Origin: Isoetes taiwanensis
Taxonomy: Eukaryota > Streptophyta > Lycopodiopsida > Isoetales > Isoetaceae
Reading direction: 5' to 3'
Length of the DNA stretch: 64,000 bases
Assembly (NCBI GenBank): GCA_021234155.1
Contig: JAJEKV010000012.1
Span: 5,769,789 to 5,833,788 of the forward strand
Shown: piece by piece, positions 12,605-61,950 of the stretch
Layout of the letters: every line of letters starts with the position of its first letter
Numbering within the stretch: position 1 is the first letter of the stretch
Program-made: the position numbers and the translations under genes
Notes under the pieces: generated by a model
Databases searched by the model: none
Seen by the model: only the letters and a program-made list of their open reading frames with translations
Told to the model about the DNA's origin: nothing

Positions 12605-14380
12605 GTCATGGCTCCTGCCAGACAGGCTGATGGGGGATCGATTGAGCCTCATGGCTTGGGGCTGAAGCCAAGGGAGATGGCGAGGAGGAAGAATCCTCCA
12701 GTAAAGGGGAAGGGCGCGGGTCTCGGCATGCATGAAGATGGCTGTAGGAAGCGGCATGCAATTGGTGGCAGAGATGAGGGAGCTCTTGGAATCCCCTTCG
12801 GTTGAGAGGTATGTGGATTGCTCTTCCTCTCAATATAATTCTGAGACCCCAGTAGATTGTGTTTTGGAGACTCCGGTCTTGATCCCATCAAGCATGCCCC
12901 CTTTGAAAACTGGATCTGTGATGCCCTCTTCCCCTGTGCTTGGGAAGGGATCACTTGCTGGTGATGCGCCCTCTTCTAGGGTGCATGTAGCTGATGTGCC
13001 TCCTGGGGTGCCCCTGGATACCTCTCGGGGATGCCGGGGCAGCAGCCCCAACTCCCCGCGCCGCCCTACCGGCCCGAGCAATGACACCGCTTGCTCGCAT
13101 CACTTTCGGTAGGGGTTTTCAGATTGGATCAAGCGCAAGGCTCCTGAGTGTAGGACTGCCGCAGTTCAAGAGGCTCTGAAATTTGTGGAGGATCATCACT
13201 CTATTGACCTGCAGGCAGCTCTTCCAGAGACTCCATGGATAGATATTGATCATACCAGGCATGTTCAGACTATTGAGAATCTAGTTTCATTTGCAGTATT
13301 GGGCTACTTCACGGGTTACATATTGGACACGAGGAGGTTTAGCTCTTGGCTTGCTGGACATCTGAGGCGGATTGGTTTGCCCAGGTATCAGTCTCTGAAA
13401 TTCCTCCCAAATAATTTTTTCATAATCATGTTTGAGGCTGAGTCTTCCGTGCGGCAATTGGTTAGTCGAGGGGTGGATACTTTGGGTGACTCATATGTGT
13501 TGTATCAGTATTATACTCCGGCAATGTCCACCAGTTCTTTGACAGCGGTTAAAATCCCGTGTTGGTTTCAGATTCAGGATCTTCCTCCTGATCTGATGGT
13601 GCCTGATTTCTTGGTTTCTATGGCTAATGGCCTGGGTGTATATTTGGCTCATTCTATTGTGCGCAGTCCCCAAGATCGTGTTGCTCTCCACTGCTTTGCG
13701 GCCCAGGCCCACTTCTCTTCCAAGACGTAGTGGTCCCCGGCATTTTCTATTCCGATTGAAGCTTTTGAATGGCTCTCGAGATCCGTGGATGTTTCCATCT
13801 ATTGTCTTTGCCATCCGACCACATTGATGATCCTGGGTGTGGTGCCGGGTGATGTGGTAGGGATTGCAGGTGCTTGTGCAGGGGCCCGGGATTCCTTTGT
13901 TCCTGAGGTAACAGGCGGAGGACTTCGTGGTGCAGTGAGTGGAGTTGGACGAGGTGGTGGTGTGGTTGGGAGAGGTGGTGTGGGACGAGGCCGGGCAAAG
14001 CTTGCTTGCCGGGCCGCCCATTGGATGGCGGTGGCTAGGGGGGTGGTGGCTCGTGGGAGGGCTCGGATGATGATTTGGTTGTGGCTAGGTCTGAGGACAG
14101 GGCTGTGGGAGGGGCTGGTGATCCTGTTGGGGATGTCCAGATAGCGGTATGTGCTGAGCATGAGGTGGCTGGAGCAGTCCGGTTGGAGGTAGAGACTAGT
14201 GTGGCCCATGACTCTATGGAGGTGCCTGGGGGACTTCCAACACGTGTTGGAAGTGGAGTGTCACATACAGCGGCTGTGGGTCACTTTGCTGTGATTAATC
14301 CTCTGGCTCTAGGTGATGACTATGTGGAGTTGACTGATGGCCTGGTGGGTGGGCATGTGGGGCTTGATACTTCTCCTCCG
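12605..14380 (+). pseudogene. LINE ORF1 (DUF4283 gag-like, glycine/arginine-rich tail)
   Basis: The longest clean frame, 13185-13730, has the DUF4283 pattern: FAVLGYFTGYILDTRRFSSW, then FLPNNFFIIMFE, YYTPAMS, and IPCWFQIQDLP followed by a hydrophobic helix. This domain forms the nucleic-acid-binding part of plant L1 ORF1 proteins, which coat the RNA in the retrotransposition particle. Upstream frames (12605-12800, 12732-13112) give basic and serine/proline-rich N-terminal stretches. Downstream, 13900-14000 encodes a glycine/arginine-rich RGG-like segment (GRGGGVVGRGGVGRGR). A possible CCHC-like cysteine/histidine cluster lies around 13800-13840 but crosses frames. At least three frame changes separate these pieces, so the ORF is broken. 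It is followed immediately by ORF2. Confidence 0.8.
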
Positions 14381-14382
14381 GG

Positions 14383-17300
14383 ATGAATAGGTCGATCCTC
14401 AGTTGGAATGTGCGGGGGGTGCGGTCCTCTAGTAGTAAGAGGGCCCGTGTTTCTTTGGCACTTCGGCAGTTGCGTCCTGATATTGTTTGCATTCAGGAGC
14501 ATAAGTGTCACAGGGGTGATATGTCTAGGCTCATGAATATGGTTGGTAGGCAGTTTGCCTCTATTGCTTCTTCTTCTGGGCGGACTAGTGGGGGTACTCT
14601 TATTGCTTGGAGGATGGATGTGCAGGTCACGTACTCTGCAGCAGACAGGTTTGGTCGGTGGGCAATCATTAAGTGGATGGAGGGAGGGCAAGAGTGGGGG
14701 ATTGTTAATGTTTATGCCCCTAATCAGCCTTCTCAGCGGGGTGCTTTATGGGCCACAGTTCGGAATAAGTTGCGAGCCCTTGGTGGGTTGCAGGTCGCTT
14801 GGTTCAATATGGTAGAGCGAGTAGAGGATCGCTCTGGTTCTGGAACCCAGGTTGTGCATGGGTTTGAGAGGGACCAGTGGTCTCGCTTGTTGCAGGATTT
14901 GGCCTTGGTTGAGGTCCCTGGGGACTTGTCTTTCACCTATTGTAATAGGCAGATTGGTGCGGGCCGGGCGTATGCTAGGCATGACCGGTGTTATGCTTCC
15001 CCATGCGCACTGGATGGTGTGCCCTCTTTGCGCCGGAGTAACATTCTGTCTACCTCCATTTCTGATCATTACCCTCAGGTTTTGTCCTGTCAGGGTGCAG
15101 TTGCCTCTCGGCCCTCTAGGACAGTGTTCCGTTTGAACACCCGGCTTCTGGCTGATGCGGATTTCGCCCCGGTGCCGAGTTGTGGCTTGATACCTTTTCA
15201 TCTCCTCGAAGGGTATGTCTGGTATGGTGACCGCCTTGGCCGTGGTGAAGCGCTTTGCCAAGGTCTTTGGTAGGCGCCGCGGTGCGCAGGAGCGCAGGAG
15301 TTGCATGGTCTCTATCGGGGAGTTGGAGAGGATTCGGGCGCAGCCTTCCTCGATGGCATTAGGGAGAATGCCGTGTTGCAGCCATATTGTTGCTCTCGAG
15401 CAGGTTAAAGTCACGAGAGGCACGCGTGTGAAGGCAGCCCCACCGGGTTGAAGGAGGGGGACACAAGTTCGCTCGGTTCTTCTTGAGCGGCTAGGCAAAT
15501 GGGCGATATCAAAGATCTATGGCGCCCCTGCTTTGCCCGATGGCCGGACTTTGGAGGATCCCGCTGATTTGCAGAGGTATGTGCATGCCCATTTCTCGGG
15601 GTTTTTCGCGACAAACAAGACTCTTCCCTATGAGCAGGAGATGCAGGAGCTTGTTTTGGGGGTCGTTAAGCCATCTATTCTCGCCTCACCAAATGAGAGA
15701 GCTTGGAGCAGAGCTCTCCGAGAGAGGATTTAGCTGCGTGGCATGTATGTGCATGGCCAAGGATAAATGTCCCGGGCTGGATGGCATCCCCGTGGAGTTC
15801 TTTCGGACTTATTGGGAGTGGGCTGGTGAGTCGGTTGTACCGTGTACCTTGAGTTGCTGCAGTCTTCTCAAATGGATAGGATCTTGAATACCGCATGCAT
15901 TTCCTTGATTCCTAAGGTTAAGCAACCTTCTACTATTAATGATTGAGGCCTATCTCCTTGTTGTCCTCGTGTATAAGATTATTGCGAAAAGCCCCGGCAG
16001 AAGTTGAAGCCGGTGTTGACTTCTTCCATTAGTAAGGTGCGATGGGTTTGTCCCCTCGAGGAACATTTTGACTAATGTTGCCGCAGCCTTATGAGGGGCC
16101 TTTATTGGGCCGTAAGAACGGGGCAAGGCATTGCCTATCTTAAGCTTGACTTTGCCAAAGCTTACGATAGTGTCCGCTGGGGAGTTCTTGTCTCGCCATG
16201 ATGTTAGCGTTGGGTCGTGGTCCACGCTTTCACCGAGACGATCATGAAGCCGCATAGGTCGCAAGACGCTACGGTGGTGTGTGCCAGGTGAACCCTCCTC
16301 CTTTTTCTCCTTAGGCGTAGGGGTGCGCGTCGGGGTGCCCTTTTTGGCTTTTTGTTTACGACAGGGTATGAGGCAATCGCCTCGCTTGTTTTGGTCAGCA
16401 GGTGGAGGAGGGAGTAGTGGATGGGCTTGGATGCGAGGATGGTAGCCAAAAAATTATTAACCAGGTTTGCCGATGACACTTTCCCTCTTCTTGTTGGCGT
16501 AAGAGAGGAATTTGCGCAATGTGAAGGGTTTGTTGGATACTTTCTCCTTGGCCTCGTGGCATTCTTCCTCAATTGGGGTAAGTGCTCCGCATTATGGGCC
16601 CCCACCGACTCCGCCCCCCCTTGTTTGGCTCTATTCCCTTGGAAGGTGCTTCCGTGTAATGTGTGTACTAAGTCATTGGGTATTCCCTTTGGAGGGATGT
16701 TTCCATGGGGAGGGTGTGGGATGAGATTTTGCGGGGATTGCGTAAAACACCTCAATTGGTGGAAGGGTAGCAAGTTGTCCATGGCGATAGGATCACTATT
16801 GCCAAGTCAAGATTTTTTGTAGCACTCATGTGTATCTGAAGATCTGCGATGCTAGCTCCCGAGGGTAAGATACGTGCTTTGGATAAGATTGTTCAAATTT
16901 TGTGTGGGGCGGGATGATGAAGGGCGGTTGTTAAAATGGCTTGGTGGAAGTGTCTCCGCCCCGGGAGGATGGGGGCTTGGCCATTCTCGGATTTAGCTGC
17001 ATAGTAAGGTGTTGGTCTCCAAGTTTGTTTGGAGCATTCTCAGGATGGAGCATCTTCTCCCCAGTGCGGGCGCTTGTTGTTGCGCTCTTCGCCATTGTGT
17101 GGTGTTTGGGAAGCCGTCTGTGCATGTGGAGTTGCCCCGCACCGTTGTATGGTCTCCGGCCTTTCCCACATGCATCCCCTTTTATCACAGAGTGTTGCGG
17201 GCTTGGGATCATGTGCGTGTGCTCTTCCAGCTAGATTATGCCTCGGTTTATCACCACTCTTCTCCTTTTCTTGTGGGTTCCTTTACCCCCAAGACTTGCC

Positions 17301-20110: not shown

Positions 20111-21264
20111 CGTCTTTTGAGCCCACTTTTTCCTTTACTATAAATGTCCTACACAAATGAGAACCGAAGACTTGACTTTGGTGTCATGCGGACTAAGGCA
20201 ATGTGCTCTTTATTAGCACTTTGTATAGACAAAACTTGTCAACATTGATTTGTTTGTAAAAGATAGGGCTAAAACGGAGTCAACAGAAGCAAGATTGGCA
20301 ATCGAAAGAGGGACGAACGGAGCAAGCGGTATCATCTCCTAATTGAACCTTCGATTGTTATAACTCAAATGTGTTTATTCTCTCTTTATAGCTCCTTTTT
20401 CCATTCTTGTTTTGGAGCAATATACTATGTTATATTCCACAGTCATTACATTTTATTTATAGAATCCTAAACAACAATCTAAATAGAATCAATCATTATA
20501 AAACAGGCATCATGTAGCCCACATAGCCAAAAAACAAACTGGAAGCCGTTGCTATCAAAAAAGGGGGCAGAGTTCGAATCTTCAGGCCAAGGCACTCTCA
20601 TCAGAGTGCAAGAACATAACCTGCATCAACAAAGAATCATTCATTCATCATCTGCATCCATTCATTCATCTGCATCAACATAATTTCCAAGTACATTCAT
20701 CAAAGAATCATTGCAAGCTAAGTCTTCTATGTGCCACATAACCTGCTCAATAATACGGGCAATATAGGCTCTGCTCCAAAGCGGAAACAAGTATTCAAAG
20801 CCGAATAAAATATCCAAACTGTTTTTCACTACTAGTTGCCTCAAACTGACTCTCAAACTGACTGATTGCTTACAAACAACCAATGAAACACCAAAAATAC
20901 ATTAAGGATGAGTTTGATTTCATCCAAATTCTCTCACAAAGAAAACAAAGCAGCAGTCTTCTAGGTCGACATGAACAAGGCAGAGATACAATCATATCTA
21001 CATATCCACGAAGTTCGAGATTTTATTCCTGGACTACTGCACCTAGGCCCATGTTATCACAACATATATAAAGCAGTCTCATTTTTTGTTTGAGGCTAAT
21101 ATTTTCGTCCCAAAAAAAAAGGTGTACTTAAGAAAATAACAAAAATTAAAAAAACCCAAAATTCTTGCACGACCTTCCCCTTTCTTGCTCTTCAAGCAAT
21201 CCCTGACGGCTCAGCCAGCCGCCAGATCTCTGTGCCACTTCTCTGCGCCTTGCCACAAAAGAGG
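20111..21264. other. Spacer without recognisable gene
   Basis: AT-rich. A GAGTTCGAATC stretch near 20570 resembles a Pol III B box, but no matching A box or cloverleaf is visible. The minus ORF 20662-20883 has no recognised domain. Confidence 0.4.
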
Positions 21265-21415
21265 GCCACGAGCCCATCGCGGTAAATGTCGGACGTGAGC
21301 ATGTTATAGCCAGCCTTAAATGGCAAAAAATCCGCTGTCCACAAAAACGCCGTGTAATTTTTTTTTGGCGTGGCTATAGCATGTCAGAGACACAGATATA
21401 CCACTTATATGCCCG
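21265..21415 (-). repeat. Dispersed repeat, copy 1 (inverted relative to 29.7 kb)
   Basis: About 140 bases matching 29735-29880 in opposite orientation at high identity by eye. The shared core includes ATTACACGGCGTTTTTGTGG and TTTAAGGCTGGCTATAACAT. Within the unit, CATGCTATAGCCA and TGGCTATAACATG form short inverted arms, so it may be a small foldback element. Confidence 0.75.
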
Positions 21416-22780
21416 TAAAGATGGTGTCCGATATATACGGGGCTCCGCCACGAGCATCCAAGCTTCTTTAAACAGGGCTTACTTTGGGGCTTATTTGTCA
21501 TGTATTGACTGTCGTCCTGTATTGATCTGCCGTAGAAAATTTTATCAGAGCTATTTGGGCTCAGGCCGGCAGAAAAATCTAAGCAATAACCATAGCCAAG
21601 TCCGGAAGTCTACCCATGGCTCTACCCATGGCAGATAGGAAAAGATGATTTCATTACTTAAGTAAAGACCCATTCTCATAGCTTAGATCACCGTAATTCT
21701 CACAGTAACTCAAACAAGGTAATCTTGCAGATGCCATGAAGCCGGATAAGAAGTGTGGACAACCTGCCATTACTTTTCTCATGTGTTGATTGCTGATTGT
21801 TGTAAGGCGTGCAACCCACATAGTTTTGTTCTTCACTTGCATCGTATAGTCTGATAATAGGCAGGAATAATGTATTCACAGATTATGTGGAGACAGTCTT
21901 AAAGACATGTAACTGGAGAGTAGTGCAAGTTTGGGGCTTTAAAATGATTTCTGTACGATGATAGTCGACTGTAGGATTGGAGTTGAGATCATCAAACGAC
22001 ATGCAAGATGTGCTAGAAGGGAATTGGATTGGGCCGAAATCACCTAGAGGGTTAAGAGAGATTCAAGACTGTGGCAAAGGCTACGGATCTGCCATATAAA
22101 ATTCGTCCCAGCCAGAAACAAATCCCTGAGTTAACCTGAAACAGTCAATTTGCCCGAGGGAATTTCCGATTTTGCCATACTTGGGCTTGGGATAAAAAAA
22201 TAGAATAGCTTTGTTGGACCAGAATAAGGCTGCAAATCGATGATACCACGGTAAAATAGCCTCCAGAACTAGTCGGAATCTAGGCCAAGAAGGCCAATTT
22301 GCTGTGAAAAGGTCTTTGCTAGGTTGAACGTGTGGAAATTGAAAGATGAACGTCTCCTTCCTTGTGGCTATTCTGCCGAGACTTAAGAAGATCAACCAAC
22401 CTGATTTGGACTTGGAATTTTGTTAAAAAATAACAATATAATATCGGGGAGTTAACAATGTTATATAGGGGCATTTGAATTGTCCATAGAATTTCGTTAT
22501 TAGTGAAACTATGGGTGATTCCAGGCAAAGGGAGATGCACGAGAATTTGAAGTGCAAGTTTGGGTGCATAGTCAAAGTATTCTTGATGTAGACATATATT
22601 GGATTGTACGTGAAATTGTGATTGAATACCTATCAACATGAAATTGTGATTGAATACCTATCAACATGCTTCTCCTGTTGCTCAAACGAATGTTCACAAT
22701 CAGTTACTCGTCTTCCCAATACTCGTTTCATAGGAAAGAGAAATATTCGCGCAAGGCCACTGTGATAAATTTCTTGTTAG
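21416..22780. other. Spacer with unrecognised minus-strand ORF pair
   Basis: Two overlapping minus-strand ORFs (22319-22639 and 22081-22395) could be one frame-broken coding relic, since both have tryptophan-rich, protein-like composition (ANWPSWPRF, LPWYHRFAALFW). I cannot name a family. An exact tandem repeat is listed separately. Confidence 0.3.
22611..22666 (+). repeat. Exact 28-bp tandem duplication
   Basis: The 28-base unit beginning TGAAATTGTGATTGAATACC occurs twice head to tail with no mismatch. Confidence 0.95.
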
Positions 22781-22805
22781 GAAAGTCCACTTAGTGGACT
22801 TTGCT

Positions 22806-22827
22806 ATTACGTGGATGACACTTAGGT
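22806..22827 (+). repeat. Left terminal inverted repeat of Crypton-type element
   Basis: ATTACGTGGATGACACTTAG is the outer part. It pairs with the reverse complement of 26148-26169 at 19/22. Confidence 0.65.
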
Positions 22828-23613
22828 GTCATCCCCCTCGGCGCCACGTCACCATTTTTTTGCTTTACAATTTTTTTCCCCTGTTTTCTGCTTGCCTGTG
22901 CCGTGGCGATGGATCTTCGGAGACGTCGGCATGTTTCTTTTTGAGGCGTCGGCCTACATTTTTGAGGCGCTGGCGTTAGATTGTTAGGATTTCATTTGGC
23001 GCAAGCTGGGACATCCATTTGGTATCATTTTGTCAACATTTGAAGGTTTTTTTGGAAAGAATCTTAGGCGCTGGCCTAAGATCCATGATTTTTGACCTGA
23101 AGCAAGCTCGAACTTTGTTTTGCTCGAGAGTTTTCAAGGTTCTTAAGATCTGTTTCAATAAACTGAGGTATTTTTGTGATTTTGTTGAAGTATGAGTTTT
23201 CTTTTAGCTAACTTTCTTGTTCTTTTACTTGCAGGCGTGGATCTTGCTACTAGGTTCGTCATATTGTTATTTCTGAACGTACATTGCAATATTTTGGAAG
23301 TTTATAGTGTTGGAATGACATTTTGTGGAGAATACAACAGTTTAGCCGAGTCTCAACTTTGAACTTAGCCGAGTTTCGGTCTATCGGTTGTGCATTCCTG
23401 AGGTAACCACTTAGCTTTCTGCATGTTAAGTATTCTGCATGTTAAGTATTTACGGACGTAAAGATTTACATTGTGCATGTTTATGGTAAAGATTCTAATG
23501 TGAATGTGTTGTAGATTGAAGATCTGCTGTAAAGGTTTGATATGGATTCTCATCTGAAGGTTCTATTGCATACTTTACTTCTACTTTATGGAGCTTGTTC
23601 GAGGTTTGCAGGC

Positions 23614-25648
23614 ATGGATTGTTCAGCCCCGACCTTCAACATTCTTAGTCCTGAGGGTTGTACTTCTAGAATCCCTATGCTTGGAGATATTTCTAACATG
23701 CAGGATGATCAAGATAGTGACATGGAAGATGAGTTTGCTGTTGAGGCTGTAGAACAGTTTTTGAAAGAATCAGGTTGTGATTTGGAAATTAACAGTGAAC
23801 CTGATGCAAACAAGCCTGAGAATGGCAAAGTAGTACCATTCCTTGAATGGGACCAGGATCTGGTAAGCGAAATCCAGAATGGCGGTATCAGCAAATCTGA
23901 GGCTAAGTTGCAATGGGCAAGAAGGCAGTTTGATAGCTGGAGAGTTCACAAAAAAAATCCGATCGATAAAACAATTGAGCAGCTTGAGTTGAAGGAATTG
24001 GCAGGTATGTTAGAGTCGTTCATGATTCAAGTTGTGAAGCTGGATGGAAGCTTGTTCCCGTTGGAATCGTAAGTATATTTATTGATTTTGTTAATTATTT
24101 CCATGCATGTTATAATAGTTTACTTTTGTTGTGCAGGCTTCAGGATTTGTTTAGGAGATTTGGGTGTCTAGTTAGACGCAAACAGGAGTGGCGTATTGCA
24201 GAAATTGGTATTGAGGAGCCGATTCACGAGAGCCAGATTGGCTTGTGTTGCTGCTATGCGACGCTCTAGGATGACTCGAGGGATATGTAATAAGAGAAAA
24301 AAGGTGGACGAGATCTCATTTCAAAATGAACAAGCATTGTTAGCGGATGTCGATCATTCAATAAATCATTCTAAAGGTAAAACTTTTTTTGTATTTAATT
24401 TTATATTTATTTTCTGTTATTTAAGTGAATGTTTCTAATATTGTGTTTTGCAGGTTTGCAAAAGAGGATAATGTACTATTGTGTTTCTAGGTTTGGGATA
24501 AGAGGTGAAAAAGAACTAGCAGGTTCAAAGCTTTCAGATTTTACTATAGGTTCCGAGAATGAGAAAGAATTTGTGGAGTATAATGAGCGGCTGTCCAAGG
24601 CATATGACGTCGGTATGGATAGGTACCAGGAAGAGAGTTTCAGAATGCCGCTTCGTGTGTTTGAACATGATGTTATTCTAAGCTTCAAGCAATTCTTTCG
24701 ACACTATCCTACTGAGCCTAATGATTCCAATTGGTTGTTCAAGCAACCAATCATTTCACCTCGCAAATTTGTAAGCATTCAGTTTTTTACTGTTTTTCTT
24801 TTCTGTTATATATTTCTAACACTTTTGTTTGACAGGCATGGTATAATGTCAAACACCGCCTTAGTGGAAGAAAAATATCACAATGGCTGATGGTTCATTT
24901 AGCAATAAGAGTGGAAGAACAACTTTAGTTTCAAGGTTAAGTCGTGCTGGAGTGCCTCTTCAAGTCGGAATGAAAGTAACTGGTCATAGAACATCAGAAA
25001 CGTTCCACAGGTAATTCTCCATTTCTTTTCATTATTGTTTCTATTTTTCTATTATTAGTAATTGGTAGAATGCTAGTAGTTTATTCAGAATGCTAGTAGA
25101 ATGCTAGTGGAATAATTAGTATAATGCTAGTAGTAATTGGTAGAATGCGATTAATTTATTAAACTACTAGATTATGTTGCAGGTATGATAAGACCGCAGA
25201 ACTCCAGGTTAAAGCAGCAATGGAAATAGCAGGACAACCATTCAATTCTGACGGGTCTAGGCGGTTATATGAGGATGTCTATAACGATGAGCTGCACAAA
25301 TACGATGAGATTCAGAATGGAACGATAGCTGGAAATGCCTTATATGGTATCTCTCCTGCTTCAACTCCTTCTCATTCTGGTACAATACTACAGTCCATTG
25401 ATCAACAGTTGATCAAGAAAGACAGTGTAGTAAGCGCAAGCACAGGAGCACAAGAAAATGTAGGAGTTGTAGGTGACATTCATGCAGTTGTAGGTGATAT
25501 TCAGGCAGATAATGATCTTGCAGATGATGCTTTCCTCAATCGCCATTGGGAATCTCTCGAACAGGTCGCACATGAGCATCAGATTGCCATGAATATCTCT
25601 GGCGGCAAGTTTCAGAATTGCATCTTCAACTTCTATCGTAAAAGTTAA
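23614..25648 (+). pseudogene. Crypton-type tyrosine recombinase, five coding exons, two frame breaks
   Basis: Predicted exons: 23614-24068, 24137-24376, 24454-24770, 24836-25010 and 25183-25648, all joined by GT-AG introns of 65-172 bases. I chose ATG 23614 because it follows a TGCAG acceptor-like site; ATG 23542 is an alternative. The N-terminal half has the Crypton SAM-like pattern (WARRQFDSWRVHKK, ELKELAGMLESFM, KLDGSLFPLESLQDLF). Catalytic elements: arginine in SRFGIRGEKELAGSKL; KSGR in place of the usual HxxR; the TGHR histidine; and the tyrosine of HRYDK. The tail ends in GGKFQNCIFNFY, as in many Crypton proteins. Frame slips occur once between 24196 and 24225 and once in the A-run at about 24871-24875 (one A seems missing). 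Splice sites are intact, so decay is recent or the breaks are sequence errors. Expected role: DNA strand exchange in the nucleus. Confidence 0.8.
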
Positions 25649-26147
25649 GCCTACCGAACTCTGATATGAATTTGAGGAGAATTGGATATATTTTGGAATA
25701 CTTGCTATGATGTCTAATATGGTTTGAAATACTGGAATATGATCTGTGTTTTGAAATTTTGGAATATTATCTGTGTTTTGAAATACTGGAATATGATCTG
25801 TGCTCATTCTGAAATAGTGGAATATAATCTGTGCTTTGTGTATATCTGTGCTCATTGTGAATGAAATGATTTATTAAATAATGTACTAATGATCAGTGTA
25901 AAATTATACTGTGTAATGATCAGTGTCAAATGATGTTCCAAATGATCTATAAACCTGTGTAAAATGATTTGTAAAATTTCGTGTAAAATGATCTGTCCAT
26001 TGGAATGCAACTGAAAAACTCGAATACTGGAATGCAACTAAAATATTTGGAATGCAACTGAATAAAATGGATGTAGACTATATAGTCTACATGCCTGAAA
26101 ATGAAAATCAAATAAAAAAGGACACGTGTCACCACCATATTGAATAT

Positions 26148-26169
26148 ACCTAAGTGTCGTTTACGTAAT
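26148..26169 (-). repeat. Right terminal inverted repeat of Crypton-type element
   Basis: ACCTAAGTGTCGTTTACGTA plus AT; the reverse complement matches 22806-22827 with three transitions. Confidence 0.65.
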
Positions 26170-26334
26170 TATAAACAATTTGCAATACAATACATGGCAA
26201 AAATCACACTCCTAATCTTAGTAAGTGCTGCTGTCAAGTTTTACTAGAGTTTGTTCTAGAATTTAGCATGGCATGGGATTTAAGCCATTTACATGCTCAT
26301 TGTCCCAATGATACATTCTACCTTTAGAACTTGG

Positions 26335-27111: not shown

Positions 27112-29265
27112 TTACTTCCACAGACGAACTGTACCATCAACAGAGGACGTGACCATGCACACATCTGTAGGATGGTAACTTACACTTGTCACCTGCACAT
27201 AGCACAATTATTAGTATAAAGGAAGAATAATGTACTATAGGAGGAAGAATTAGGACAAAATTTTAATGCATAAATGATGAGACAAATAAATCTATAAACT
27301 CCACCACACTGTTAGATTATCTTACTTCCAGTATTGTGACCTCAAAATCCCCACCACTAAATGTCTCCTTTGTAGTTCTTTCTTTGTCTCCTAGTTTATT
27401 CTGATAAGATTCAATCACTTACTACGTTGTACCCTGTAGCATTATGTTTAAATCAATTCACCAACTGCTGTCTGCCACTCACATATTTTAGCTATAGCTG
27501 AATTCTCTTTCAAAAACCGGGTGAAAATATGCTCTTACTACTAAATACAGATGACATTCTCACATGTTGAAATTACAACAGCAACCTACCACTGATGCAT
27601 GAGCCTTGAAAGAATCTGTTTTTGAAGGATCCACTAAATCCCAGTAAACAATGCGCCCATCTTCGGAACCGGCAACAACATGTGCGTCCGTGTTTGTCAA
27701 GCAGCTGTCCGTTTTGTATGACTGTAACGATGAGTACTTTGGTAAGAACATCCACTCACACTGCACACCTTTTCTATCCATATTATGAGTTTGCTAGGTC
27801 ATAGACATATACTGCTGCAAAATAGAATACAAACTCATCCCCAATTCTAATGATCCAGGTATTAAACTATGAGATGGCAGCCCCCATGATGTTGAGGCTT
27901 CTCTGTTTACTGAGGCCAGGTCAGACTTGTATTTTAGTCTGATACCTCAGCTTTAAGAAGTATCTGCATCGCTTTCATATCTTTGGCGGCATAGGCTTGT
28001 GACTTTACTTTGGAAGGAAAGAAGGAAGGAAATCTATTCATGTCTACTGAAGAAGACATGCCAATGAACAGAGCAGAATAAGAGGACCATATGATTGCAA
28101 TACTTCATGGGAAAGGACACTGTTAATATTACTTGAATGAAGAAAATGACAAATGCACCTTGTTAATATGCCCCTTATATTCTTGCAATAGTTCTCCCGT
28201 TTCTCTGCATAATGGTGACCACTATAAGTATCCACCACTTGAAGAAGCTATTTCTACCAATTACATATCTATGACAAGGAATATGATTCCAATGTAATCT
28301 CAGGACTTACAACATCGAATTCGTACCTGTCAAGTAGTCTTAAAGTTGAATCAAGGCAGCCTGCCAGAATGCACTTTTTATCATTTGAGAGTGAAATACT
28401 GTTCACAGAATGGCCCAACTCGTCTCCAATTTGTCTGGAAAATAAACAACTTTGTTCAGAAAAGGCAGCTATATGACTAAAGATTTTTGGCATATTACAT
28501 AAACTACATACTGTTCATATAAGAAAATAAAAGAGTGGATTCACCTTCCTACACGAATATCAAATGTACGTATCGACCCGTCAACACTGCCGGCAATTAT
28601 TTCGAACTTCGTTACGACTACAGAAGTGACACTGTCTGTGAAGGCTTCCATTATCTGTATAAGATCCATCCACTCCTTAGGAGATCATTCACAGGCCAAA
28701 CAATAAATCATAGTTCTACTTCAACGAGAATATCATAACTACCAGGTAAAAAATATTTCTGTTGATAAGAGATATACCTGAATGGGCTCCATGCTGTGGG
28801 ATCGGCAATCCCAGACCCGCACAGATCTATCATATCCGCCTGAAATAATAGCTGTAACGAGCTCGTTGAATTTTACTGAATTCACCTGACAAATTTCCAG
28901 TGTAAGAATCTCATAAGTTCAAAAAATAACCAGGTAAAGAAGCTAAAGGTGGAGACCTCACTATCATGGCCTCTGAATTTACGAATCACACGGCCTGTTG
29001 AAACATCCCAGTAAAAGAGCTGTCTATCAGCTCCACAAGAACAAAGCTTAGAGTTATCCGCAGAGACAGCCACATCTCTAACTTCTCTGGCATGAGCATT
29101 ATAAGACTTGATGCGCAGGCCTTTGTGCAGGTTCCAGAGCCGAAGAGTACGATCTTTGCCATAGCTAAGGCAGTAATTACCATCGCCATTGAATCGCACC
29201 GCCAGAACAGGACCTTCGTGCCCCCGCAAAACTGACTCCTCCCTCTTAGGCAAATGCTCCTCCAT
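27112..29265 (-). CDS. MORG1: WD40-repeat protein, MORG1/WDR83 orthologue, seven exons
   Basis: Exons on the minus strand: 29265-28957, 28885-28778, 28654-28545, 28434-28327, 28204-28159, 27721-27590 and 27192-27112. All have GT donors and AG acceptors, and joined they give 297 codons plus TAA with no break. The family size is about 300-315. WD units seen: LRGHEGPVLAVRFNGDGNYC with TLRLWNL, NAHAREVRDVAVS with FYWD, GHDSEVNSVKFN with SVRVWDCRS, DSVTSVVV with IRTFDIR, LGHSVNSISLS with TLRLLDRETGELLQEYKGH, CLTNTDAHVVAGSEDG with VYWDLVD, and AHASVVTSVSYHP with TVRLWK. MORG1 is a seven-bladed propeller scaffold; in animals it binds MAPK components and is also found in spliceosome complexes. In this plant the same role is inferred. 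Exon 5 is only 46 bases. The repeat at 29.74-29.88 kb lies about 470 bases upstream. Confidence 0.93.
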
Positions 29266-29734
29266 AGCCGGCTACTAAAGAAAATTAAACCGCCCTAGAC
29301 ATTTGGGTCTTCATCAACTCCTTCTTTATTGCAATCCGGAAAGTCCCACTAGGATCCTCAGCTCCAATTCATGGATCATCAGAGTTATGGAGAAATTCTT
29401 CAAGTAGGTTCTTCCTTTTGACTAGGGAACTCCAAGCTATTGATCATCTAACGAGATCAAGGTTCTCTGGACTATGATTCAGGTTGTGCTAGAACTGTAA
29501 ACAGAAAGACATAATGGCTTATCCAATTACAATGAAGTTCCCGTTTGGTTACCTTCACACCTGAGGACGGACAGTAGCGGAGCATGAAGAATCATGCCAC
29601 AATCAGCATGCGCGGAAAATAGCAGGAGTCAGCAAAACTACAAGATCTGGCAGGAAAATGCATTTAGGGCGCGCAAAAACCCTAGTTTGGGGTTCTTTTG
29701 GGCCTGGTTTTTGGTTTGGGTTGCCCCTAACCAC
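29266..29734. other. Upstream region of the MORG1 gene
   Basis: Probable promoter and 5' UTR of the minus-strand gene. No TATA box or motif stands out. Confidence 0.4.
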
Positions 29735-54670: not shown

Positions 54671-56479
54671 TCATCTCAATATCGCGTATAGATTGGCCAA
54701 TGATACATATGTTCCAGCATTTGATGGTGCAATTTCAATAATGTGTCTAGCAACCCGCTTAGCCCTGTCCATATCATCATGGAGTTTGCACGACTGAAAC
54801 AATGTCGTCCATAATGTAACATCTGCTTGAAGTGGCATGCTGATAATCAGATCTTCTGCCACATCTAATTGTCCTAACCTTCCATGATGATCCACTCTAC
54901 AGGTATAATGCTCCAATCTAGGCAAAACCCGAAACTCCTTATTCATTGATACCAGGCAATGAGAACCCTCATCCATCAGGTCAACATGGACATATGCATG
55001 CAGAATATTGACAATGGTAACCTCATCAGGTATGCAGCCTTCTGCTTGCATTTTGTGGAAATATTGTTCAGCATCTTCACCAAGTCCATGTTGAGCATAG
55101 GCTGCAATGATAGCATTCCATGATACGACATTGCGATTGTGCATTTTCTCGAAAACTGCATACGCATCATCTAGGCCCCCAGATTTACCATACATGTCAA
55201 TAAGTGCATTTCCTAATACTATTTCTGATGTCAACCCATCATCAATAACACACTTGTGCACCCACCTGCCATCTATTAAGGCTGATTGACTCGCACAAGC
55301 ATTCAGCATAGTTATATATGTAGTCTTATTAGGCTTTATTCCTTCCATTTTCATTTCCTGAAATACTTGAATAAGTTCCTTTATCTGTCCACACTCTCCA
55401 TAAGCTGCCATTAGTGCAGTGTAAGAAACTACATCCTTATGTGGCATTTCATGAAAGAGTTCGAGAGCATTGTCCAGCTGTCCATTCAGTGCATAACCTG
55501 CTAGCATTGTGTTCCATGACACTAAATCACGGCGAGGCATTTCTTCAAACAGCATTTTGGCATCCTTTAGCATATCACACTGAACATATCCTGCAATTAG
55601 AGAGTTCCATGATACCACATTGCGCTCCGGCATACGGAAAAAAAGCTTGTGAGCCTCCCTAATATGTTTATGCTGAGCATACACTGCAATCATGGTATTC
55701 CAAGAAAAAAGATCTCTGGATGGCATCTGTTCGAAGAGGCGGATGGCATCTTGAAGGTTACCATATTGACCATGGGCTGCAATCATGGAGTTCCAAGAAA
55801 TAATATCCCGGCCAGGCATTTGTTCAAACAAATTAATGGCATCCTTAAGACGTCCATGCTCAACATAAGCTGCAAGCATGGCATTCCATGACACTACATT
55901 TCTCTCTGGCATCTTATGGAAAAGCTCAAGAGCTTCTGTGAGATTCCCATTCTGGGCATATGTTTTAACCATGGTCGTCCATGATACCACATTTCTTTTT
56001 GGCATCTGCTCAAAGAGCTGGATGGCTTCTTTGAATCTTCCATGATCTGCATAAATTGAAAGCATAATATTCCAAGAGAAGCAATTCTTAAATTGCGTCT
56101 TCTGGAACAATTCTACAGCATATTCAATTGCCCCACATTTACCATACATAAACATGAGCCAGTTCCTAAGGAAAATGTTCTGCTCTACTTTATTCTTTTT
56201 GATGTATTCATGAATCTTCCTTCCCCTTATCAAGTCATTCTTATCAGCACAATTCTTAAGAGAAGATCCAATAGCTGGCACGTCCAATCCCCTCTTCAAG
56301 AACCATTCTTGCCCAGTATGCTTATTATTTTTTACGAAATTTGCACTCCGAGAATCTGAACCTTGGATATGCTCCATTGAAACATGAACTCTAATTTCCC
56401 ACTGTTTTTTGATTGGTAAGTTATCCTCATTCCGGGAGAATGCAACATGATGAATTGCAGAGGAGGCATAATTGGACAT
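54671..56479 (-). CDS. Pentatricopeptide repeat (PPR) protein, PLS class, intronless
   Basis: 602 codons, single exon, ATG at 56479. After a basic N-terminal region that may be an organelle-targeting sequence, PPR units begin at about residue 95. Seven consecutive 31-residue S-type units run from about residue 133 to 350, each of the form (N/D)VVSWN.M...Y...G....A..LF..MP. They are followed by longer P and L type units (EGIKPNKTTYITMLNACASQ, then HNRNVVSWNAIIAAYAQHG). It stops within the E region (APSNAGTYVSLANLYA), so no E2 or DYW deaminase domain is present. PPR proteins bind organelle RNA, one base per repeat, and act in editing, splicing or stability. Lacking DYW, an editing role would need a partner; the target is unknown. 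The gene is divergent from the ORF at 57159. Confidence 0.92.
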   Translation of the reverse strand: MSNYASSAIHHVAFSRNEDNLPIKKQWEIRVHVSMEHIQGSDSRSANFVKNNKHTGQEWFLKRGLDVPAIGSSLKNCADKNDLIRGRKIHEYIKKNKVEQNIFLRNWLMFMYGKCGAIEYAVELFQKTQFKNCFSWNIMLSIYADHGRFKEAIQLFEQMPKRNVVSWTTMVKTYAQNGNLTEALELFHKMPERNVVSWNAMLAAYVEHGRLKDAINLFEQMPGRDIISWNSMIAAHGQYGNLQDAIRLFEQMPSRDLFSWNTMIAVYAQHKHIREAHKLFFRMPERNVVSWNSLIAGYVQCDMLKDAKMLFEEMPRRDLVSWNTMLAGYALNGQLDNALELFHEMPHKDVVSYTALMAAYGECGQIKELIQVFQEMKMEGIKPNKTTYITMLNACASQSALIDGRWVHKCVIDDGLTSEIVLGNALIDMYGKSGGLDDAYAVFEKMHNRNVVSWNAIIAAYAQHGLGEDAEQYFHKMQAEGCIPDEVTIVNILHAYVHVDLMDEGSHCLVSMNKEFRVLPRLEHYTCRVDHHGRLGQLDVAEDLIISMPLQADVTLWTTLFQSCKLHDDMDRAKRVARHIIEIAPSNAGTYVSLANLYAILR

Positions 56480-57158
56480 AGCTAAAGCATTGGAGAAAAG
56501 GTTACCTGCATAACAGAATTATAATCCAGTAAGATGGCATCGACATTTGCTGCTTCGTTCGGGTATGTCCAAAAAAAAAAAAATTGCAAAAAGATTAACA
56601 AGGTATGCAAACACGGCTCTCTAGGCGCAGGCGCTGAAGCTTGGGCTTCGCCCTGTGCAAAAACAGCGACGTCTGGAACTGGCTATGGCAATGGCCATGG
56701 CAGGGAAAGAAAAAAAATGGGGCTGGCGGAAAGATGGAATGGAGGGACCGGGCACGAAAAAGATGGATGGTCTGCCGCAGAATATATGCTCCGGCAATGC
56801 GTTTACTTTATTGCTCTGATCCTAGAACCCCAAATCCAATCATAAATGCATTCATTTTCGTTTTCGCAACCAATATGCCCAAGGGTTGAAGCTCGACAGA
56901 ACGGCCTTCTCAAACCCACAATCCACAATCCAAAAACAATCTGACAAACCCATCTCAATCCCCCGATTCTTGGCAATGATCCTTGACCTGTTGATCTTCC
57001 AATACGAGAAAAAGGCAAAAAGGCACGTAAATTCAATCTTCCAATACGAGAAAAATGCAAATGTAAGAATCAGTAAGATGGCAAAAAGGCACGTAAGAAA
57101 AGGCATTATCCAACCCTTCGCAGAAATTATAAGCATAATTTTCGTAAGCGGATAACAC
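56480..57158. other. Divergent intergenic region
   Basis: Likely holds 5' UTRs and promoters of the PPR gene (minus) and the unknown ORF (plus). A local duplication of CTTCCAATACGAGAAAAA... GGCAAAAAGGCACGTAA occurs at 56996-57030 and 57038-57096. Confidence 0.5.
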
Positions 57159-59545: not shown

Positions 59546-60700
59546 CTACATAAAGGTAGCCAGTGAGGGCTCAAATGTGAATACACAGTCTAGGCCATGT
59601 GTATAGCGAACTATGGACTTTAGCTGATGCCTTCCTACTTGTAAGTTGCACTCTGGCAACCATTTCCACGCACTACGCGAAAAATCATACATAAGAGCAG
59701 CACTAGCATCAGCACTGGTGAAATAAGTAAGATCACCTTCTCCAATGGACCTGAATCTATCAAACTCAATAAGCTGCAAAAATTTCTTGCAAGTTTCCTC
59801 AGGCATCCTGGTCACCTCCTTCCAAGACTTGGCACTCTGGTCTAGTTGCCAGATGCAAAAACTTTCTGGATTGAATTCTCTGCCACCAGCCTTCCTAACA
59901 CCTCCAACCATCATTGCACATCCACCATGTTCAACAAGGTAAGGCGTTAGCACAGCACTGTCAATGGTAGCTTGTGGTTTGATCCAAACCTCTTCCTGCA
60001 CACTGTATGCCATAACTCCAGGTGGAAAACACGCGCGACAATACAGATATCCCTTGCAAAATGGTTTGCCAGAATAAAGTTGAAACACAGGGGTCTTAGC
60101 ATCCCTTCTTAATGGTAGATTGCCTACCAGTTTCCATGCATAAGTTTTGGAATCATATACCTCAGTTGTAGAGTCTTTTCCTGAGGAATAACCTGCCACT
60201 ATAACTTTAAAGCTTCTGGAACTATGGTCTACAACTAAAGCATGCATTGAAGGTATTCTACATACAGATCTGTAATGAAGGGGAGAAGGAAGCTCCTTAC
60301 AGGTTTTAGTGATTGGATTGCAGACAAGATACACAACTCCACCCATTTTTCTTGTTCTAAAGCAGAGCAACCCCCCTGCTGAGGCAACTAGAGTCACATC
60401 TGCACAAGGGGGCAAAAAAGAAAGAGATATGGCATACCACTTATCAGAAGTGGGCTCATAAACACCCAATACTTCACTGCGCCCTATGCTCACATGAAAC
60501 ACTAAGCACGGCTTCTTTGATGGATTCATACAGCTTAGCTGCCGGAAATGTCTTGACCTAATAATCTGGTCCCATCTTTTGCACACATATCTCATTCTCA
60601 GTATCCAAATAAGAGGAAGCTTTGCTAGCACTTTCTCAAGGAGATCCTCCGACAAATTACACCAGATACTTGGCTCCATTATCAACACCTTCTTAGCCAA
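59546..60700 (-). CDS. F-box/kelch-type protein, intronless
   Basis: 384 codons in one exon. The F-box is at residues about 10-50 (LSEDLLEKVLAKLPL, then MRYVCKRWDQIIRS), which binds SKP1/ASK in an SCF ubiquitin ligase. The rest is a beta-propeller-like substrate region with kelch-type blocks: GVYEPTSDKWYAI, SAGGLLCFR, YLVCNPITKTCKELP, TEVYDSKTYAWKLVGNLP, AYSVQEEVWIKP and ALMYDFSRSAWKWLPECN. This is the layout of plant F-box/kelch proteins such as the At5g15710 group; that assignment is from memory of the family. The substrate is unknown. The TAG stop is at 59546. Upstream, GGTAGGTAG near 61095 and CAATTCAG near 60998 on the minus strand could bound a 5' UTR intron, and a 75-codon upstream ORF lies at 60761-60988. 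Its 3' part has a dead copy at 7.28-7.92 kb. Confidence 0.93.
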   Translation of the reverse strand: MAKKVLIMEPSIWCNLSEDLLEKVLAKLPLIWILRMRYVCKRWDQIIRSRHFRQLSCMNPSKKPCLVFHVSIGRSEVLGVYEPTSDKWYAISLSFLPPCADVTLVASAGGLLCFRTRKMGGVVYLVCNPITKTCKELPSPLHYRSVCRIPSMHALVVDHSSRSFKVIVAGYSSGKDSTTEVYDSKTYAWKLVGNLPLRRDAKTPVFQLYSGKPFCKGYLYCRACFPPGVMAYSVQEEVWIKPQATIDSAVLTPYLVEHGGCAMMVGGVRKAGGREFNPESFCIWQLDQSAKSWKEVTRMPEETCKKFLQLIEFDRFRSIGEGDLTYFTSADASAALMYDFSRSAWKWLPECNLQVGRHQLKSIVRYTHGLDCVFTFEPSLATFM

Positions 60701-61950
60701 GCATTTGAGGACCAGTCAAGTAATAATCGCTGTTAATTTCAACCACAAAAACATCTAATCTCAGCCTGGCCGGCCACTGAAATCTTCTGGATCCAAAATC
60801 CTTCTGAGCATTCTTAAAACACATGCTCCACTCAACCTATCAATACGGCCATTAGAAACAAGACAATTAATCCTCCGTTCTAAGACGGAGGTCTCAGGAA
60901 CTACCCCCATCAAAAACTTCAGACTTTGCAGATCAAAAAGACATCTAAATCTGTCCAGATCAATGGTAATTCTTACAAAACGAACCACTTCCGCCTGAAT
61001 TGTAGATCAGAAGTGCAGATCCGAAGAAACCCACATCAAAACAAATGGCGTTTCTTGAATGTGTGAAGAAAAAATGAAGAAACAGAAATCTACCTACCAA
61101 ATGGAATAAGAAGATTGACAAGGAAAGGGCTACTGCTGCCGGATTGATGGCGTGCCGAGATCGGCTTGTCCGAAGAAGAAGACCGAAGGGGTGTGCCTAA
61201 CCGGCCAAGGGACCAACGTGGCAGAAATATTTTGCACCCTTTTGTAGAAATATTGGAACGAACGGATAAGAACGAAGTCCTACAAAACATATCTTGCCTA
61301 AAATGGCCCACTCGGTTGTCCTTAGCCTCTATTTTCTACATTTCATTTATAATAACTGTCTATCCTTTGGCATTGAATGAGTCGTGGCCATGCTTACCCA
61401 TTGTAATGTAAATTTCCTACTTGGCTAAGGCTGCATCGCCGGAGAGGGCCCTGTTTTGCCCTGTGTTAATCGGCTATGGCAGGTGATGGTCCATGTAAAA
61501 GGATGAGCCATTTTACACGATGGTGATGGCGTTTGCATGTGAACCGGCTCTAAGAATGTAGGGCTTTTATTCTATGCTTTGGAGTTTAGTTACCTACTTT
61601 AGGTTTATAGCTTAAGTTAGGTCTATGAGCAGAGAGGAGGGTTGTGGACATGATAGAATGTGACACGTAGCTGGCTATCGAACGTTGTCTGTTGTCTATT
61701 TGTCTAATTTCACTGGTGTTTATTGTCTAAGTTGACCTAAGTATTATTGTCAATACTTATTGCTGAACCCATGTATTATTGTTGCTAGGTCGTTGGACCC
61801 AAGGATATTCCATGGAATATCTTAAGACATGCAATCCTGACCCTCTATCCAAGCTTATGTGGCTCTATTTTTAGGGTCAACCTTACCTTAGGAAATAAGC
61901 TAAATACACAATTGACTTTGAGGCGTATACTACACCAAACTCTACATATG
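60701..61950. other. F-box 5' region and spacer
   Basis: 60701-61100 is the likely 5' UTR with a possible intron; 61100-61300 is the likely promoter. From 61300 on I see nothing. Confidence 0.45.

Follow-up and report, generated by a model that had tools for sequence, protein, structure and literature searches.

The window (the whole 64,000-nucleotide stretch of Isoetes taiwanensis DNA analysed here) contains a decayed, Crypton-like element with a predicted five-exon tyrosine recombinase gene and, apparently nested in its left end, a Helitron-like element. Elsewhere in the window lie two retroelement pieces, one with an RT RNase H domain (1088–1600, +) and one, LINE-like, with an exonuclease/endonuclease domain (14368–15273, +), as well as a WD40 exon (28882–29271, −), a PPR protein with an E motif (54671–56518, −) and an F-box/KIB1-4 propeller protein (59546–60715, −). 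The features of the element are listed below; dyads and the right end are given without strand.

21053–21056 (+): probable true left terminal bases, GTTA, severed by the nested Helitron-like element; four bases only
21057–22777 (+): Helitron-like element inside the left end; starts with TCACAACATATATAAAGC and ends with a hairpin and GATAAATTTCTTGT
22778–26165 (+): Crypton-like element, decayed copy, from the left-end remnant to the right terminus TTTACG, where the homology of dispersed copies ends
22779–22805: left terminal dyad; 10-bp arms AGGAAAGTCC and GGACTTTGCT, 9/10 paired, around the 7-bp spacer ACTTAGT
22817–22834: subterminal dyad GACACTTAGGTGTC(ATCC), an inverted copy of the right end
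23614–24068 (+): exon 1, N-terminal part; a further in-frame ATG lies upstream at 23542
24069–24136 (+): intron 1, GT-AG; site also present in copy L023
24137–24376 (+): exon 2, frame broken; ~26 nt fewer than copy L004, near 24225–24234
24377–24453 (+): intron 2, GT-AG; site also present in L023
24454–24770 (+): exon 3, with the first catalytic arginine (FGIRG), aligned with relatives
24771–24835 (+): intron 3, GT-AG; site also present in L023
24836–25010 (+): exon 4, with the KxxR box and TGHR, frame broken; ~28 nt fewer than L004, near 24889
25011–25182 (+): intron 4, GT-AG, interrupting HR|Y; site also present in L023
25183–25648 (+): exon 5, with the catalytic tyrosine (HRYDK) and the C-terminal GGKFQNCIFNF tail; stop at 25646–25648
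26139–26165: right end, comprising the subterminal inverted repeat (decayed here, with 18/27 positions shared with its left counterpart) and the terminus ...CCTAAGTGTCGTTTACG

Structure of the window copy

The original prediction placed an intron-bearing, Crypton-type recombinase element at 22806–26169. Comparison with dispersed copies moves these boundaries to 26165 on the right and to a left remnant that starts at 22778; the repeat that had been taken as the outer left end was rejected because copy homology extends further out. The remnant is preceded by a Helitron-like repeat that has its 5′ end at 21057 and its 3′ end at 22777. This repeat (window 21057–22777 and L034–L042) has paralogues with other flanks (L034–L036), shares its 5′ end with L050 and L051, and matches through its 3′ part at least about 40 places (40 of 77 candidates scored). 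The GTTA that precedes its 5′ end and the remnant TAGGAAAG together look like GTATATAGGAAAG. These four bases suggest that a Helitron may have inserted into the recombinase element, the true left terminus of which would then probably be 21053. No empty site for the window insertion was found, and the right flank is unique at the junction.

The motifs FGIRG, KSGR, TGHR, HRYDK and GGKFQNCIFNF are encoded within 24454–25648 as predicted, and the four introns have GT-AG borders at the predicted places. The spliced reading at 23614–25648 is, however, not open. When the window exons are joined, exon 2 runs into a stop and continues in a different frame, and exon 4 does the same; the ~26 and ~28 nt missing from these exons are arithmetic from the coordinates of the alignment of the window with L004. 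Broken in frame at two places, the window copy is a relic and cannot make the protein. In L023, a dispersed copy, the same four introns join the exons into an uninterrupted frame of 569 aa. Because these introns open the L023 frame and the exons are under purifying selection (see below), the exon–intron pattern is not due to chance, and it is conserved splice sites and frame, rather than RNA, that support the predicted introns.

A dispersed family with one open copy

A DNA search of the I. taiwanensis genome (1,658,258,908 bases in 1110 contigs) with window positions 22790–26190 returned at least 76 pieces that match, with 40 out of 137 candidates scored. Besides the window there are five near full-length copies with 84–89% identity, and a second subfamily is found at 70–74%. 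Both ends could be reached in ten copies, nine of them 3.3–3.5 kb long and the tenth, L019, internally deleted to 1.4 kb. Flanks differ among copies except in local duplicates such as L024 and L026, two near full-length copies that sit with element fragments in a segmental-duplicate cluster (C1033:11632000–11671999; L045–L048). Contamination was considered and rejected, as the copies are on many-Mb scaffolds and so are relatives of the small-contig loci L001 and L002.

Among the copies examined, only L023 is open. L028 was a second candidate (dS 0.033 from L023, stop-free over 563 aligned codons) and was rejected because 10 nt are missing from its exon 2. No stop interrupts the aligned pieces of eight of 25 rows (L023, L028, L010, the window, L015, L016, L013 and L001), most of which are incomplete or, as in the window and L028, have a broken frame. 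Between the window and L023, dN is 0.134 and dS 1.033 (dN/dS 0.129, 536 codons), with exon 3 differences distributed 10/10/48 over the three codon positions. The median dN/dS over 270 pairs of copies is 0.257, and the local duplicates L024/L026 stand at 1.18. These ratios indicate that the exons evolve under purifying selection.

Introns and selected exons would also be found in a domesticated, conserved host gene of Crypton origin. The copies are nevertheless dispersed, mostly with different flanks and many of them decayed, and the catalytic residues are retained (see below), unlike those of the domesticated DUF3504 genes described in PMC3212892, so that we give domestication next to no probability. 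A single-copy host gene, the alternative named in the original prediction, is rejected outright by a dispersed family of many copies.

The size of the copies bears on a further possibility, that the recombinase is what remains of a DIRS- or Ngaro-type retrotransposon after loss of its reverse transcriptase. Retroelements of these types also carry tyrosine recombinases, and DIRS1-like elements are reported from Viridiplantae (PMC4157794). The six near full-length copies (window included) and the nine two-ended copies of 3.3–3.5 kb leave little room for gag and reverse transcriptase, though, and the exons are selected as a stand-alone gene. Ten further ORFs of at least 50 aa on both strands of the window element gave no Pfam match at E 0.1, and the five recombinase pieces of the window gave no Pfam match to reverse transcriptase or transposase. 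A retrotransposon origin thus seems highly improbable. Since no reverse transcriptase was found in the ~3.4 kb between the ends (window copy scanned), we class the element as a Crypton in the broad sense, a DNA transposon with a tyrosine recombinase as its sole transposition protein; the recombinase is identified through relatives in the same genome.

Recombinase identity and catalytic residues

A DUF3504 architecture had been predicted. Neither the window pieces nor the L023 protein matched DUF3504 (PF12012) in Pfam, and L023 scored 17.6 bits against Phage_integrase, below the cut-off of 27.1. Only two related loci, L001 and L002 (contigs C31 and C606), passed the curated PF12012 cut-off of 29.7, L002 with 31.9 bits. 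These two loci represent a second spliced recombinase family, with eight predicted exons in L002 and the C-terminal tail FSFNFSFY. A third group, L054–L056, is a large set of single-frame recombinase ORFs of ~410 aa; in L054 and L056 one open frame follows a putative intron, judged by eye, at the intron 1 site. Phage_integrase (PF00589) is matched above cut-off by L056 (33.1 bits) and L054 (31.7), in both over the later half of the domain, and falls below it in L055 (25.5). Relatives of L056 are 96–97% identical to it, and the 96% one is stop-free. In the genome, the L002 protein has at least 156 matches, on many large scaffolds (82 of 1158 candidates scored), and the L056 protein at least 117 (101 of 2080); such genome match counts are of pieces rather than elements and are lower bounds, and some of the weaker matches may belong to other groups.

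The three groups, represented by L023, L002 and L056, are divergent. In a five-protein comparison, L023 is 35–36% identical to L054 and L056 (E 9e-65 and 3e-67, respectively), the 36% being to L056. With L002, it shares 26% identity across 408 aligned columns (E 3e-29 for this one pair), and a profile of 16 rows gives an hhalign probability of 98.6. Residues R261, K384xxR387, H410 and Y419 of L023 align in 5/5 proteins from the three groups (L054–L056 being one). Of the R-H-R-Y tetrad, the first and second arginines and the tyrosine are therefore present, and the HxxR histidine is a lysine in all five aligned proteins, as it is in 21/21 copies of the family that are readable there. Type IB topoisomerases likewise carry a lysine at the position of the HxxR histidine.

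Homology of L023 to its relatives in the same genome argues that the window family encodes a tyrosine recombinase. The original prediction had named a missing DUF3504 hit as evidence against itself, and for the window family the hit is indeed missing; the recombinase reading is rescued because L023 is homologous both to L056, which matches Phage_integrase, and to L002, which matches DUF3504. The predicted DUF3504 match is found in a related family of this genome and not in the window family. Beyond the genome, a large protein database that includes plant proteins gave no homologue at E 0.01 for the L023 and L002 proteins among the top 7992 and 7996 candidates scored, and viral and prokaryote contigs gave no relatives of either by two peptide patterns each. 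For L056, one weak phage match was obtained (E 2e-3, query 216–292). Solved structures provided no credible match.

Ends and target preference

Homology among the copies runs out at ...GTTTACG on the right side and, on the left, at GTATATAGG. Each left end carries a dyad, or two of them, built from 10-bp arms around a 7-bp spacer; when dyads were counted only if at least 9/10 arm positions were paired, 20 were found at left ends among the copies, compared with 26 in a scan of 148,245 positions for such dyads irrespective of sequence. One arm position varies, and its pairing is kept in 16/20 dyads (A-T in 11, T-A in 5) and lost in 4. Inside the left dyads lies GACACTTAGGTGTC, the inverted copy of which is the right end. 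The resulting subterminal inverted repeat matches at 19–24 of 27 positions in eight copies other than the window. The right-end 25-mer occurs 52 times with at most 2 mismatches (18 exact; some of the 2-mismatch occurrences are the left inverted copies) and its reversed control not once. A palindrome, GACACGTGTC, is present ~35–60 bp inside the right end in the window (26120–26130) and in L057, so that the window family and the L056 group share it.

The five bases preceding the left G match TTTAC at 44/70 positions over 14 insertions, a count based on a motif picked after viewing the flanks and tabulated by hand; the null mean is 19.6 and the largest of 100,000 draws is 35. Copies without an intact left end were excluded, L024/L026 were counted as one, and the window entry depends on the nested Helitron proposed above. 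When L005 and L028 are left out, the match is 34/60 (null mean 16.8, largest 32). The base following the right end is T in 12/17 copies, A in L015, L016 and L030, and G in L025 and L028 (L005 and L006 are too short to show it, and L020 is L017 again); among two-ended copies it is T in 9/10. Judged from these flanks, the insertions show a bias toward TTTAC^G-like sites. In the ten two-ended copies, compared by eye, no target-site duplication longer than G(T) was seen.

MITE-like elements with a similar end plan occur at L027, L005 and L008, some of them joined to the element as TTTACG|TATA. This junction is found at element ends in L005, L008, L017/L020, L027 (twice) and L028, and a MITE-like neighbour is seen only at L005, L008 and L027. 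As TTTACGTATA, the string is also present at two seemingly unrelated places, the minus strand of L023 and L044. The inverted repeats of the MITE-like neighbour match at 22/27 positions in L005 and weakly, at 12–16/27, in L008 and L027. At L008, the element sits between two direct copies of one MITE plus ~0.5 kb of flank (93% over 805 bp), so its contact with the MITE may stem from duplication. Tandem duplications of this sort (L008, C1033) may mean that some contacts arose by later rearrangement.

Subterminal inverted repeats and MITE-like relatives are reminiscent of a TIR-class DNA transposon, in which an unrelated transposase would move the element and the recombinase would be cargo. Yet no second coding region was recognised in the element, and the ten two-ended copies, compared by eye, have no recurring target-site duplication beyond G(T). 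Moreover, the arm and spacer lengths of the dyads (10 and 7 bp) come near the recombinase site format of 11–13 bp arms and a 6–8 bp spacer given in PMC3212892. We regard a TIR-class transposon as very unlikely.

Discussion

Taken together, the window element is very probably a tyrosine-recombinase-only DNA transposon, a Crypton in the broad sense, residing in the genome of a lycophyte. The original prediction of a Crypton-type, intron-bearing tyrosine recombinase element in a plant thus holds at its core, without its DUF3504 match, an intact window copy or its boundaries. The anatomy of the ends suggests how such an element could move. The protein from the spliced gene (569 aa in L023) would attach to the paired dyads of both ends and excise the element as a circle. 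The circle would then insert at sites similar to the right end of the element itself (TTTAC^G), among them the ends of elements already present, and would leave no target-site duplication longer than 1–2 bp.

Cryptons (CryptonF, S, A and I; Kojima and Jurka 2011) are listed for fungi, animals and stramenopiles in Table 1 of PMC3212892, where they are described as lacking terminal inverted repeats, and a Chlamydomonas sequence is named in the legend of the Crypton tree. Like them, the Isoetes element is a few kb long, encodes a tyrosine recombinase with no recognised reverse transcriptase, and is dispersed, with non-autonomous relatives that PMC3212892 also describes. A few dozen copies per species are given for Cryptons in PMC4157794. 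The Isoetes family differs from the Cryptons of PMC3212892 in its land-plant host, its four coding introns, the KxxR in place of HxxR, and its subterminal inverted repeats and dyads without a 4–6 bp direct repeat. CryptonF and CryptonS have 4–6 bp terminal direct repeats and no terminal inverted repeats, whereas only G(T) is common to the Isoetes ends; CryptonA and CryptonI have no terminal repeats, in contrast to the terminal inverted repeats seen here. With the DUF3504 genes (ZMYM2/3/4, QRICH1, KIAA1958, KCTD1 and WOC), the likeness is the PF12012 match of L002 above its curated cut-off; these genes have lost the catalytic tyrosine and the second arginine (PMC3212892), both of which the Isoetes proteins retain. 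Phage_integrase proteins are matched above cut-off by L054 and L056, but the Isoetes proteins are eukaryotic, have lysine in place of the first histidine of the HxxR box, and are spliced in L023 and L002. The plant DIRS-type recombinase elements and ALOG domains of PMC3537659 belong to a tyrosine recombinase lineage in plants as well; they are presented there as retroposons or transcription factors, while no reverse transcriptase was recognised in the Isoetes element.

In the literature searched, with Repbase Reports and most subscription papers lying outside it, no Crypton family described from land plants came to light; one may already be on record. Automatic "Crypton" labels do appear in plant repeat tables (535 in PMC8729191, 237 in one column of PMC10722297 and 24 in PMC6294377), and the word is absent from the main texts of both Isoetes genome papers. 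In land plants, elements of this kind are thus labelled by software, and no description of them was found.

A broader and decidedly tentative reading, which we hold to be improbable as a whole, is that quillworts have undergone a large, partly recent radiation of KxxR-type tyrosine recombinase transposons, in some of which several introns interrupt the coding sequence, and that the ends of these transposons act as a code. Every family like the window's would have its own dyad pair, with arms that differ and palindromy that is kept, around a CTTAG centre and inside a fixed outer TTTACG. Its members would insert at TTTAC^G-like sites and at the ends of one another, so that several recombinase/attachment-site pairs of separate specificity might coexist in one plant nucleus. 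Such a code does not extend to the L056 group, because the L056 family has a sharp right end, TCTATATTG, and no TTTACG terminus.

A land-plant radiation with spliced recombinases, close open-frame relatives and readable ends would extend the host range of Cryptons to vascular plants. It would also provide a case whose ends and target are legible in many copies, and a source of eukaryotic recombinases with their own introns that could be tested in plants.
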